A stretch of 52,024 bases of DNA from an uncultured Clostridia bacterium. GTDB taxonomy: Bacteria > Bacillota > Clostridia > Oscillospirales > Acutalibacteraceae. A model generated the notes under the pieces. The model did no database searches. It worked only from the letters and a program-made list of their open reading frames with translations, and was not told the DNA's origin. Shown piece after piece: positions 18,113 to 22,127 of this stretch. A program made the position numbers and the translations under genes. The DNA lies in assembly GCA_947631855.1 (NCBI GenBank), contig CANRMX010000010.1, positions 1-52,024 on the forward strand, in the 5' to 3' direction. How positions within the stretch are numbered: the first letter of the stretch is position 1; the number at the start of each line of letters is the position of its first letter.

Positions 18113-18616
18113 GCCGTGTCCTCCCCTCCGTGCGCCCGCCTTATACTACCCGGCGGGGCCTTATCCATATAGTTTACCACAAAGCTGTCCCGGTTTCAAC
18201 CAAAACCGCCCACCCTCCGGGAATTTTCCGGAAACGGCAGGCGGAATTCGTCAAACTATCCAGTTTGCGGCGGGCGCGTAAAAAACAATTCACAATTTTT
18301 TCAAAAATTCCTTATCTTTGCTTCACAATTTCCCTGTATGCTATAAGCGTGTTCTAAAGAATTTCTCATCCAAACCCCCTTCACTGCCCCTTCCGTCGGG
18401 CGGGAACGGCGACAGTCGTTCCAAAGCGAACGTCCGGCGGCTGCGGCAGACCAATCATTCTCGTTTTTGGAGCTTTCTCCAAAACGTGACCCCCATAGAT
18501 TTCATCACTCGCATATTTAAAGGTAACGTCCCTTGCAGCTTTTGCCAGGGACGTTATTCTTTGCAAAAATAAAATCCATCCCGGGTGGCAAAGTAAGATC
18601 GGGACCTGAGCGTCCC
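18113..18616. other. Intergenic region between the vor operon and spoIVB
   Basis: About 500 bp without a supportable gene; short open frames here lack coding character. It is A/T-richer than its surroundings around 18280-18360 and contains one clear hairpin (18525-18555). It must hold the divergent promoters of the vor operon and spoIVB, but I cannot place either with confidence. Confidence 0.5.
18525..18555 (+). promoter_or_regulatory. Hairpin in the spoIVB upstream region
   Basis: Arms AACGTCCCT (18525-18533) and AGGGACGTT (18547-18555) around a 13-nt loop, followed by ATTCTTTGC. It may be a terminator-like or leader structure about 60 bp before the spoIVB ribosome binding site. Confidence 0.5.
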
Positions 18617-18622
18617 AAGGAG

Positions 18623-19771
18623 GTGAAAGCAATCAAACGATTTGTCCACAAAAAACGCGCGATTTGTAAGGCGATCCGCATCTTTGCCCTGAGCGTGGGC
18701 GCCACGGCGGTGTGTATGCTCTCCTCGCTGGGATTCCTGGGGCCCATCCAGCGCTGGGAAGAAACGGCGGTGGAGGCTTCCGTTTTCAACAGCAGTCCCG
18801 CTCCTTCGGACACGGCGGCCGCGGCCTCCGTCCAGTCCCTGCCAAAGGTGATCCCGCTGGGCATGACCTTCGGCATTAAGATGTTCACGGACGGTGTTAT
18901 TGTTGCCTCCCTCTCCGATATTTATACCGGCGACGGCGCCCGCTGTCCCGCAGGCGAAAGCGGCATCCGTCCCGGCGATTATCTGGTGAAAGCCAACGGA
19001 GAAGTGCTGACCCACAACGCCGATGTGGCGCGGATCATCAGCGCCAGCGCCGGCGAGGAGATCACCTTCACCGTGCGGCGGGGCGACAAGCTCTTCGACG
19101 TGACCGTGACCCCGGTGTTCGGCGAAGGCTCCTTCAAGACGGGGATGTGGATCCGGGACAGCGCGGCGGGCATCGGCACGCTGACCTTCTGCGATCCCGC
19201 CACCGGCGCTTTTGCCGGGCTGGGCCACGGCATCTGCGACCTGGATACCAGCGGCCTGATCTCCCTGAAAAGCGGTGAGCCCGCGCCCATCACCCTGTGC
19301 GGCATCGTGCGGGGCGAAAAAAACGACCCCGGCCAGCTGCGGGGGTATTTCTCCTCCGACGACAGCCTGGGGGTGCTGACCGCCAACAACGAAACGGGCG
19401 TTTTCGGCGTGCTCAAGGAAATCCCCACGGGTGAGGCGGTAGACGTCCTGCCCCGGGAGGAGGTGACCACCGGCCCGGTGCAGCTGCTGGTGACGCTGGA
19501 CGAGACCGGCCCGGCCCTCTATGACGGGGAGATCGAGGAGGTGCGCCGGGACGAGCAGCGCACCCGGAACCTGGTGGTGCGGGTGACGGACCCCGAGCTG
19601 CTGGCGCGCACTGGCGGCATCGTCCAGGGCATGAGCGGCTGCCCCATCCTGCAAAACGGCAGGCTGGCCGGGGCGGTGACCCACGTATTCACCGAGGACC
19701 CATCCCGGGGCTACGGGATATTTGCCCAGACCATGTGTGAGGAAAGCACAATATCTGGTGTGTCGAAGTAA
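18623..19771 (+). CDS. spoIVB: SpoIVB serine peptidase (S55), sporulation sigma-K checkpoint
   Basis: About 380 residues. SpoIVB is made in the forespore and triggers pro-sigma-K processing. There is an N-terminal membrane helix (FALSVGATAVCMLSSLG), a PDZ domain around SGIRPGDYLVKANGE, then the S55 domain with LGHGICD (catalytic His region) and QGMSGCPI (catalytic Ser). The exact start is unclear. The best ribosome binding site, AAGGAGGTGA (18617-18626), overlaps an in-frame GTG at 18623. The codon at the right distance (18632) is ATC, possibly an altered ATG. The coordinates use the GTG. Placement just before spo0A is the standard order. Confidence 0.9.
   Translation: MKAIKRFVHKKRAICKAIRIFALSVGATAVCMLSSLGFLGPIQRWEETAVEASVFNSSPAPSDTAAAASVQSLPKVIPLGMTFGIKMFTDGVIVASLSDIYTGDGARCPAGESGIRPGDYLVKANGEVLTHNADVARIISASAGEEITFTVRRGDKLFDVTVTPVFGEGSFKTGMWIRDSAAGIGTLTFCDPATGAFAGLGHGICDLDTSGLISLKSGEPAPITLCGIVRGEKNDPGQLRGYFSSDDSLGVLTANNETGVFGVLKEIPTGEAVDVLPREEVTTGPVQLLVTLDETGPALYDGEIEEVRRDEQRTRNLVVRVTDPELLARTGGIVQGMSGCPILQNGRLAGAVTHVFTEDPSRGYGIFAQTMCEESTISGVSK
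19761..19767 (+). promoter_or_regulatory. Candidate 0A box upstream of spo0A
   Basis: A perfect TGTCGAA within the last codons of spoIVB, about 125 bp before the expected spo0A transcription start. A second TGTCGAA lies at 20831-20837, after spo0A. Several 7-mers of this kind are expected by chance in 52 kb, so only the location speaks for function. Confidence 0.4.
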
Positions 19772-19855
19772 GTCGTAACACAATATTTCTGGCTTTTTGG
19801 TCAGGATTCGCCGCCTTTCGGCAGGATATTTTTTATGTTTTTTCCACGAAACCTC

Positions 19856-19918: not shown

Positions 19919-20680
19919 ATGGAAAAGGAAATAAAGATCATAATCAGTTCGGAAGACGGCGAATGGGGCCGGGACGCCCTGCAGAAATTGACACAGCGGG
20001 GCGGCCAGCCAACGCTGGTCGGTCGGGACGGCACACTGCTGCTGGAAAAGATCCGGGAGCTTTCGCCGCAGATCGTGGTGATGGAGCTGTTCATGCCCGG
20101 TCTGGATGCCATCGGCGTGATGCACGCGGTCAAGCAGGCGGGCATCCCCGAGCCCCTCTACATAGTCACCGCCTCTTACACGACGCCCATGCTGGAACGG
20201 GAAGTCGTCAGCGCCGGCGCGGCCTATTTCGCCCTATCGCCCTACAGCAAGGACGACATGGTGGAGCGGATGTTCTCCCTCCTTGTCCAGCGGGACAGGC
20301 AGCCGGAGCTGCTGTCCTCTGCGTCCAGTATGCGGCGGCAGGTAACAGAGATCCTGCACCAGATCGGCGTGCCCGCCCATATCAAGGGGTACCACTATCT
20401 GCGGGATTCCATCATCATGGCCGTTGAAGATCCGGATATCATCAACGCGGTGACAAAGCAGCTCTATCCCGGCGTGGCCAAGCGCTACAACACCACCAGT
20501 TCCCGGGTGGAGCGGGCCATCCGCCACGCCATCGAGGTGGCCTGGGACCGGGGCGATGTGGACGTGCTCAACTCCTATTTCGGCTATACGATCCACAACA
20601 CCCGGGGCAAGCCCACCAATTCCGAATTCATCGCCATGATCGCGGATAAGCTCACCCTGCAGACGATCAGCGTTTCTTAA
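19919..20680 (+). CDS. spo0A: Spo0A, master sporulation regulator, with a degenerate receiver domain
   Basis: 253 residues. The C-terminal DNA-binding domain (about 140-253) is close to Bacillus Spo0A, with [26 protein letters not shown] and [11 protein letters not shown]. The N-terminal receiver (1-120) keeps its overall pattern but not its active site. The phosphoacceptor Asp is Glu56 (VVMELFMP), the acidic pair is Ser11-Glu12, and the conserved Lys is Ser107 (ALSPY); Thr84 remains. By family knowledge such a receiver should not be phosphorylated normally. The start is ATG 19919, 5 nt after GGGAGG. It lies directly behind spoIVB, so this is the canonical locus and not an obvious paralogue. 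Confidence 0.93.
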
Positions 20681-21035: not shown

Positions 21036-21551
21036 TTACTTCTTCTCCTCGCCGCCGCATCCGCAGCCGCAGGAGCCTTCGCCCTCTTCCTTGTCGCCGC
21101 AGCAGCAGCAACCGTCGCCGTCTTCTTCGTCCTCGTCTTCCTCGTCGAAGTCGAACTCCAGGTGCTCGCCGCAATGGGGACAGATGATGCCGCCCTCCTC
21201 CAGCATATCGTCGGTGAGGGTGATCCCTTCGCCGCAGCTGGGGCAGGTGACCTCGAACTCCGTTTCGTCGTCGTGGTGATGATGGTGGTGGCAGCCTTCG
21301 CAGCCGCACGCGTCATCCTCATCCTCGTCGTCGCCGTAATAATCTGCTTCCAGATTGCCCAGATCCTCGTCGATCTCGTCCAAGACTTCGCCCAGGTCGC
21401 TAAAGCCGTCCTCCAGCTCCTCGATGGCCGCGCAGAGATCGTCCAGCAGATCGGCCATGGCGTTCAGCACTTTGGTCTCCTTGGCGTTGGGATCCAGCTG
21501 CAGGCCCTCCATCAGGCCGCGGATATAGGAAGCGCGTTCGGAATTTTTCAT
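21036..21551 (-). CDS. CD1247 N-terminal domain protein with zinc ribbon, His6 run and Cys-rich tail
   Basis: 171 residues. Residues 1-70 form an acidic helical domain of the CD1247 type (SERASYIRGLMEGL...). Then come an Asp/Glu stretch, Cys82, Cys84, Cys87 and six consecutive His (88-93), a zinc ribbon with Cys103/106/124/127, and an acidic tail with CCCC (148-151) and CGCGCG (161-166). The metal-binding capacity is evident. Its function is unknown. It is 18 bp downstream of efp in the same operon, an arrangement seen in related clostridia. Confidence 0.85.
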   Translation of the reverse strand: MKNSERASYIRGLMEGLQLDPNAKETKVLNAMADLLDDLCAAIEELEDGFSDLGEVLDEIDEDLGNLEADYYGDDEDEDDACGCEGCHHHHHHDDETEFEVTCPSCGEGITLTDDMLEEGGIICPHCGEHLEFDFDEEDEDEEDGDGCCCCGDKEEGEGSCGCGCGGEEKK

Positions 21552-21569: not shown

Positions 21570-22127
21570 TTATGCTCTCTCCATGTACTCGCCGGTGCGG
21601 GTATCGATGCGGATCATTTCGCCCTCGTTGATAAACAGCGGCACGCGGATCGTTGCGCCGGTCTCCACCGTGGCGGGCTTGGTGACGTTGGTGGCGGTAT
21701 CGCCGCGAACGCCGGGCTCGGTAGAAGTGACCATCAGCTCCACGAAGTTGGGGGGCTCGATGCCGAACACATTGCCCTTGTAGGACAGCACGCGGCACTG
21801 CATATTCTCCTTGACGAACTTGAAGCTGTCGCCAAGGATGTCGGCGTTGATGGCCTGCTGCTCATAGGTCTCGTTATCCATGAAGTAGTAGAGGCCGTCC
21901 ATGTTGTAGAGATACTCCATATCCTTCCGCTCGATGTAGGCGGTGGGATACTTGTCGTTGGGGTTGAACGTTTTCTCGGTGACGGCACCGGTGAGCACGT
22001 TGCGGATCTTGGTGCGCACAAAGGCCGCGCCCTTGCCGGGCTTGACGTGCTGGAACTCGATGATGGAATAGACGCTGCCATCCATCTCGAAGGTGACGCC
22101 ATTTCTGAAATCGCCTGCTGTTACCAT
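21570..22127 (-). CDS. efp: Elongation factor P
   Basis: 185 residues with the three-barrel EF-P/IF5A fold. EF-P relieves ribosome stalling at proline runs by reaching into the P site. The tip of the first domain, [10 protein letters not shown], carries Lys33 at the position that is modified in some bacteria; no epmA/epmB-type modifier is visible here. The length is standard. Start codon 22127 has an AGGAGG ribosome binding site. Confidence 0.97.

Follow-up and report, generated by a model that had tools for sequence, protein, structure and literature searches.

The stretch analysed here (the window) comprises 52,024 nucleotides from an uncultured Clostridia bacterium of the family Acutalibacteraceae, order Oscillospirales, and carries a spo0A gene 147 bases downstream of spoIVB. 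The genome to which it belongs, G000, is a fragmented draft of 1.84 Mb and 81% completeness. The features of the locus are:

18533..19771, plus strand: spoIVB (peptidase S55 with PDZ; PF05580, 240.6 bits)
19761..19767, plus strand: TGTCGAA, matching the 0A-box word exactly, 158 bases ahead of the spo0A start codon and overlapping the end of spoIVB
19817..19823, minus strand: TTCGGCA, a 0A-like box in a place conserved in many genus members (by eye, unscored)
19919..20680, plus strand: spo0A coding sequence, 253 amino acids (TIGR02875), the sole Spo0A_C match in G000
19919..20290 (end approximate), plus strand: degenerate (pseudo-)receiver domain, just below the Response_reg cut-off, from profile alignments
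19949..19954, plus strand: Ser11-Glu12 replacing the Mg2+-binding Asp10-Asp11, from alignments
20084..20086, plus strand: Glu56 (GAG) at the phospho-acceptor position, from alignments
20171..20173, plus strand: Ala85 where Thr or Ser is conserved (B. subtilis 86), from alignments
20237..20239, plus strand: Ser107 replacing the conserved Lys108, from alignments
20342..20653, plus strand: intact Spo0A_C DNA-binding domain (PF08769, full length)

A sequence-only reading of this DNA had placed the frame, its coordinates and its start correctly: the ATG at 19919 directly follows GGGAGG, a good ribosome-binding site, in a longer frame that opens at 19835. The protein scores 231.3 bits against the Spo0A equivalog model TIGR02875 (cut-off 200). 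PF08769 (Spo0A_C) matches at 159.8 bits (cut-off 25) over model positions 1–104 of 104, in keeping with the earlier claim that the whole DNA-binding domain is conserved. The same reading held that the gene is no spare paralogue and regarded a second, intact Spo0A as decisive against its view. We found a single Spo0A_C match in the 81%-complete G000 and one full-length Spo0A in each of the 28 genus genomes that carry the gene, including the one-contig G003 and the 100%-complete G028, and a second intact copy is rejected for the genus. The position behind spoIVB had also been offered as an argument for orthology. The neighbour is indeed there (TIGR02860, 300.5 bits, slightly below the cut-off of 305.25), but among loci with at least 900 bases of upstream DNA it adjoins spo0A in only 11/26 of the genus, 67/115 of the family and 31/83 of the order (10/27, 67/115 and 32/85 when recounted under other limits); adjacency alone is therefore weak evidence and was dropped as a proof. 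Together, model matches and copy number support an orthologous Spo0A and do not favour a spare copy. A short Spo0A paralogue with only the DNA-binding domain does occur beside the full-length copy in G013 (L031, G013:C191), and similar short frames lie on G079:C5, G123:C6 and G148:C16, each in a genome with a full-length Spo0A.

Residues of the receiver domain

Pfam Response_reg (PF00072) gives the window's receiver 28.0 bits (E = 2.7e–6), under its cut-off of 30.2, which the receivers of relatives L066, L087 and L092 pass. The profile of alignment A1 matches Spo0A receivers of known structure with E-values down to 1.8e–22. Residues were read from MAFFT alignments (331, later 401 loci) against B. 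subtilis Spo0A, and a profile–profile alignment of genus against canonical receivers (99.4% probability) gave the same assignments. In B. subtilis numbering, D10, D11, D56, T86 and K108 form the aspartate switch; PMC12632262 describes roles of these residues. All five are altered in the window's protein: D10S, D11E, D56E, T86A and K108S.

The earlier assignments of Glu56 to Asp56 and of Ser11-Glu12 to Asp10-Asp11 are thus borne out by both alignment methods. Ser107 does align with the conserved Lys, as proposed, but the B. subtilis number of that Lys is 108 rather than about 106. The claim that Thr84 is conserved is not supported. Ala85 occupies the conserved Thr/Ser place and Thr84 aligns with residue 85; the alignment is gapless here, also with close relatives, and a one-residue slip of strand 4 is possible. 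Asp63, which had been named as a potential hidden phosphosite, is a distinct residue, the conserved Asp of the LD motif following MP, invariant in 43/43 rows of A1 and in 28/28 genus sequences, and was rejected for that role.

A pseudo-receiver is defined in PMC12632262 by the absence of at least one of the five active-site residues, and here all five are changed; Glu56 likewise places the protein among the aspartate-less receivers of PMC4395418, in which the phospho-Asp is replaced. With the five switch residues reading S, E, E, A and S, the claim of a canonical phospho-switch falls, while that of orthology stands. The protein is a Spo0A orthologue and, by residue definition, also a pseudo-receiver response regulator. 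The central observation of the sequence-only reading, a Spo0A receiver that lacks the phosphorylation site, is thereby confirmed, and it extends to relatives.

Distribution and selection in the genus, family and order

spo0A is present in 28 of 29 genus genomes, the one without a match being 60% complete, and the 27 relatives share 65–77% identity with the window's protein. Asp10 and Lys108 are found in none of the 28 members (position 108 holds Ser in 19, Ala in 4, Thr in 3 and Met in 2). Position 86 is Thr or Ser in 5/28 and Ala in 23/28, and position 11 is acidic in 27/28. A survey of residue 56 among relatives, proposed earlier, found Asp in 16/28 and Glu in 12/28 genus members, hence an acid in every one; Asp56 is missing from 30/89 loci of the order's other families. 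Since Glu56 recurs in 12/28 members and Lys108 and Asp10 are absent from all 28, the pattern is not a sequencing accident. An assembly error, or an intact Spo0A hidden elsewhere, could appeal to the fragmented, 81%-complete state of G000, but with the pattern common to 28 genomes of one full-length copy each we give it practically no weight.

A genus gene tree built without the active-site columns requires five or more switches of position 56 between Asp and Glu. The losses of Lys108 and Asp10 are common also to sequences of related genera (L215, L224, L226, L228 and L232), and we infer that loss of the pocket probably came first, with Asp and Glu becoming exchangeable only afterwards. Selection seems to act on the acidity of position 56, which is never anything but Asp or Glu in the genus, although 6 of the 9 possible point mutations of an Asp codon would encode another residue.

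This pattern bears on the suggestion that Glu56 mimics the phosphorylated state and locks Spo0A on. Glu56 is real, and PMC4395418 and PMC12632262 state that Glu most often takes the place of the Asp in aspartate-less receivers and can partly activate some regulators. However, PMC4395418 lists Spo0A among regulators for which Asp-to-Glu alone is insufficient, and 16/28 genus members have Asp56 despite the shared losses of Asp10 and Lys108. With Lys108 and Thr86, which would hold the Glu in place, both lost, and with sister sequences differing between Asp and Glu, the acid looks structural rather than frozen 'on', and a simple phosphomimic is highly unlikely.

We estimated dN/dS pairwise (NG86) for pairs with dS of 0.1–2, other pairs being saturated or too close. 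Receiver medians are 0.22 for Glu–Glu (29/66 pairs), 0.22 for Asp–Asp (93/120) and 0.24 for Asp–Glu (114/192), with a highest single value of 0.66 among Asp–Glu pairs; for the DNA-binding domain the medians are 0.03–0.04. The receiver is under purifying selection, and with such medians in both domains spo0A is not decaying. The mean entropy of the five active-site columns in the genus is 1.17 bits versus 0.64–1.48 in eight other receiver segments, which all exceed the DNA-binding domain (0.20). In the genus the active-site columns have lost their special conservation and vary about as the rest of the receiver does.

We then compared wider sets. The family set holds 122 main copies, one for each of 122 of the 125 extra-genus genomes with a match over the cut-off (G083, G164 and G176 were left out, and L234–L241, eight copies that lack a receiver, diverge strongly or are second in their genome, were excluded). 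The set for the order's other families has 89 loci from 86 of 121 matching genomes (the best 30 plus 59 chosen across families), and that for other orders of the class has 70 loci from 70 of 105 matching genomes (the best 30 plus 40 chosen from lower scores). 'All five' permits Asp or Glu in the acid pair and Thr or Ser at 86. Asp56, Lys108 and all five positions are kept in 112, 89 and 57 of the 122 family copies, in 59, 76 and 25 of the 89 loci from the order's other families, and in 68, 68 and 62 of the 70 from other orders, where Asp56 is missing from 2/70. The 40 lower-scoring loci of other orders alone give 38, 38 and 32. Compared with other orders, all five positions are depleted in the family (Fisher test, P-value 2.5e–9) and the order (P-value 5e–15), and Asp56 alone in the order (P-value 5e–7) but not in the family (P-value 0.22), P-values that overstate the significance because the loci are related. 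A FastTree phylogeny of 378 Spo0A sequences, including the named loci, gave at least 37 changes between Asp56 and other residues and at least 28 for Lys108, counts that gene-tree errors inflate and in which gain and loss look alike.

In other orders the active-site columns are by far the most conserved of the receiver (entropy 0.37 versus 1.24–2.45 in other segments), while the corresponding values are 1.34 versus 1.34–2.83 in the family and 1.48 versus 1.81–2.89 in the order's other families. Constraint there is weakened but not gone, because active-site entropy is above that of other orders and still at the receiver's low end. As the active-site columns rank lowest or close to lowest in variability, Spo0A is probably still phosphorylated in some members of the order. 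The phosphosite residue is Asn in several of the order's families (L066, L168, L275, L276, L323 and L326 among others), Pro in L065 and Trp in L217.

In G158, another genome of the family (99% complete), the top Spo0A match among those listed is a DNA-binding domain only (PF08769, 154.1 bits):

G158:C79:20900-23000, frame 1458-1871: receiver-less Spo0A (L234) with PF08769 and a TGTCGAA word upstream

The 2.1 kb of this locus, read in six frames, held no receiver remnant (best E-value 0.63, versus 1.8e–38 for the control locus L002). Tentatively, and with more doubt than confidence, we suggest that across the order the phosphorylation input of Spo0A may have been dismantled many separate times, leaving at least one species with a receiver-less Spo0A, and that entry into sporulation is set without Spo0A phosphorylation, through the dosage of Spo0A or through a new partner.

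Kinases and sporulation genes

The sequence-only reading had also suggested a search for orphan kinases that might act on this Spo0A. Kinase–receiver pairs were tallied by eye, and unpaired kinases were judged against the receivers listed. Within that scope each of the 10 HisKA kinases found in G000 is either fused to a receiver or has a receiver gene no farther off than about 2 kb. The same holds for 7/8 in G016 (the eighth is 3.3 kb away), 2/2 in G131, 12/13 in both G022 and G035, 9/10 in G082 and 25/31 in the one-contig G003. Orphan kinases may thus exist in G003 and G022, because 6/31 and 1/13 of their HisKA kinases are without a listed receiver within 2 kb; the search came out negative for G000 and gave six candidates in G003, on C1 near 776889, 795845, 901308, 1130255, 1411757 and 1518211. 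As a discriminator the orphan count fails: G080, which keeps Asp56 and Lys108, is fully paired (4/4) like G000. A cluster of three hybrid kinase–receiver genes and one further receiver match lies at G000:C1:40900-51100.

The receiver might still be phosphorylated by an unusual route, at Asp56 in the Asp-bearing sisters, at Glu56 or at another residue. The acids kept at positions 11 and 56 of the genus would suit this, the ten HisKA kinases of G000 could cross-talk, and some kinases of G003 and G022 have no receiver nearby among those listed. We regard the idea as very unlikely in view of the loss of Lys108 and Asp10 in all 28 genus members and of active-site columns that are not specially conserved there. 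The review PMC11210211 reports that Ruminococcaceae are without the Spo0F/Spo0B relay and expects direct phosphorylation of the Asp by orphan kinases; G000, in contrast, shows no unpaired HisKA kinase among those listed, whereas G003 may have some.

We next considered whether the organism has left the sporulation pathway, as had been raised earlier. SpoIVA is found in 28/29 genus genomes (26 full length, G000 included), SpoIIGA in 28/29 (several cut short, intact in G000) and SpoIIE in 27/29, every match being below the model's cut-off. G000 and G013 gave no SpoIIE match, and genes missing from G000 prove little because it is 81% complete. In a chosen panel of 80 family and order genomes SpoIVA is present in 37/38 that lost Asp56 and in 40/42 that kept it; hence loss of Asp56 does not accompany loss of SpoIVA.

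The main rival to a pseudo-receiver that still works is relaxed constraint in lineages that sporulate rarely or not at all: having largely given up sporulation, they would let the input side of Spo0A drift and keep the protein for other stationary-phase targets. Descriptions of cultured relatives fit this. In PMC11316587 Acutalibacter caecimuris and A. intestini are non-spore-forming and the entry for A. muris is 'not available'; Ethanoligenens harbinense appears, in PMC3533761, among non-spore-formers that encode Spo0A. Caproiciproducens 7D4C2 has sporulation genes and spores were not observed, Anaerotruncus colihominis is tabulated as 'No' for spores, and Oscillibacter valericigenes is non-sporulating, yet has Spo0A and sporulation sigma factors. 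That spores were not observed in culture says little in either direction. Against drift stand the retention of SpoIVA, SpoIIGA and SpoIIE in most of the genus, the even occurrence of SpoIVA in the panel, the purifying selection still acting on the receiver and a DNA-binding domain far less variable than any receiver segment. We consider drift rather unlikely, and departure from sporulation finds the intact SpoIVA and SpoIIGA of G000 on one side and the lack of a SpoIIE match in the draft and the two non-spore-forming Acutalibacter species on the other.

Possible control of the window's Spo0A

Outside its receiver the window's protein resembles Spo0A of Bacillus and Clostridia (TIGR02875) in domain order, DNA-binding domain, place behind spoIVB, single full copy and a 0A word in its own promoter. 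It differs in keeping none of the five phosphotransfer residues, and so kinase input cannot be assumed. The earlier doubt about the canonical route is strengthened by the five changes and by the genus-wide absence of D10 and K108, and residue data support the view that canonical phosphorylation of this Spo0A is unlikely. Since the receiver has lost the chemistry of normal activation, Spo0A is probably controlled some other way.

An exact 0A word occurs on either strand within 300 bases upstream of spo0A in 16/28 genus members, versus a mean of 1.0 in shuffled sequence, which is consistent with autoregulation. No enrichment was found before spoIIE (0/26 genus loci) or spoIIGA (1/28). By eye, the spoIIE promoters of the genus (L402–L427) have in common two TGACAGAA-like boxes, spaced by roughly two helical turns, together with a GGTATAAT and, some 21 bases past the second box, a TATAAT. 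Such long spacing between box and TATAAT resembles that of Spo0A-activated promoters of B. subtilis.

Overall, we lean towards the view that the receiver has become a pseudo-receiver and that Spo0A acts here without aspartyl phosphorylation, set by its amount and/or by a partner or ligand. Spo0A of this Acutalibacter-like gut bacterium would then be a functional orthologue that no longer takes part in His–Asp phosphotransfer. The acid at position 56 would be kept for fold or dimer geometry rather than as phospho-acceptor, as in GlnR and RamR, whose Asp serves dimer formation according to PMC12632262. The intact DNA-binding domain would still bind 0A boxes, including those before spo0A, and Spo0A may retain its part in sporulation. 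Activity would follow the amount of Spo0A, through an autoregulated promoter, and/or a protein or ligand on the receiver; control by amount, partner or ligand is listed among the possibilities for pseudo-receivers in PMC12632262, which calls their switching on and off a mystery. ChxR, GlnR, RamR and HP1043, as described in PMC12632262 and PMC4395418, are likewise DNA-binding regulators that lost catalytic residues, most commonly with Glu for Asp, and have no neighbouring kinase. Unlike them, the window's protein is a conserved developmental master regulator, and the loss of catalytic residues recurs in an order.

Phosphorylation of Spo0A is treated as given in PMC6136694, PMC11210211 and PMC3533761, the last two describing it as a step that every spore-former must pass to make endospores, and a gut genome survey (PMC11536998) uses spo0A presence as its first criterion of sporulation potential. 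Searches of open-licence PubMed Central full text gave no report of a natural Spo0A lacking the phosphosite, and the word 'sporulation' is absent from the main text of PMC12632262. If the favoured reading is true, entry into sporulation can be rewired to a phosphate-free signal in a clade, and repeatedly in an order to which many of the uncultured gut Clostridia belong; spo0A presence would say little about kinase control. The more tentative reading, of repeated dismantling across the order, could also explain why many of its members carry sporulation genes yet are not seen sporulating in the laboratory. The relatives provide a natural series for receiver function (intact, Asp without Lys, Glu, Asn and receiver-less), and Spo0A, whose output is well known, is a good place to learn how pseudo-receivers switch.

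Two further frames of the window lie downstream of spo0A. One (21036-21551, minus strand) encodes a short acidic protein that carries a LysW-like zinc ribbon and a His-rich stretch, and the adjoining one (21570-22127) resembles elongation factor P by eye.
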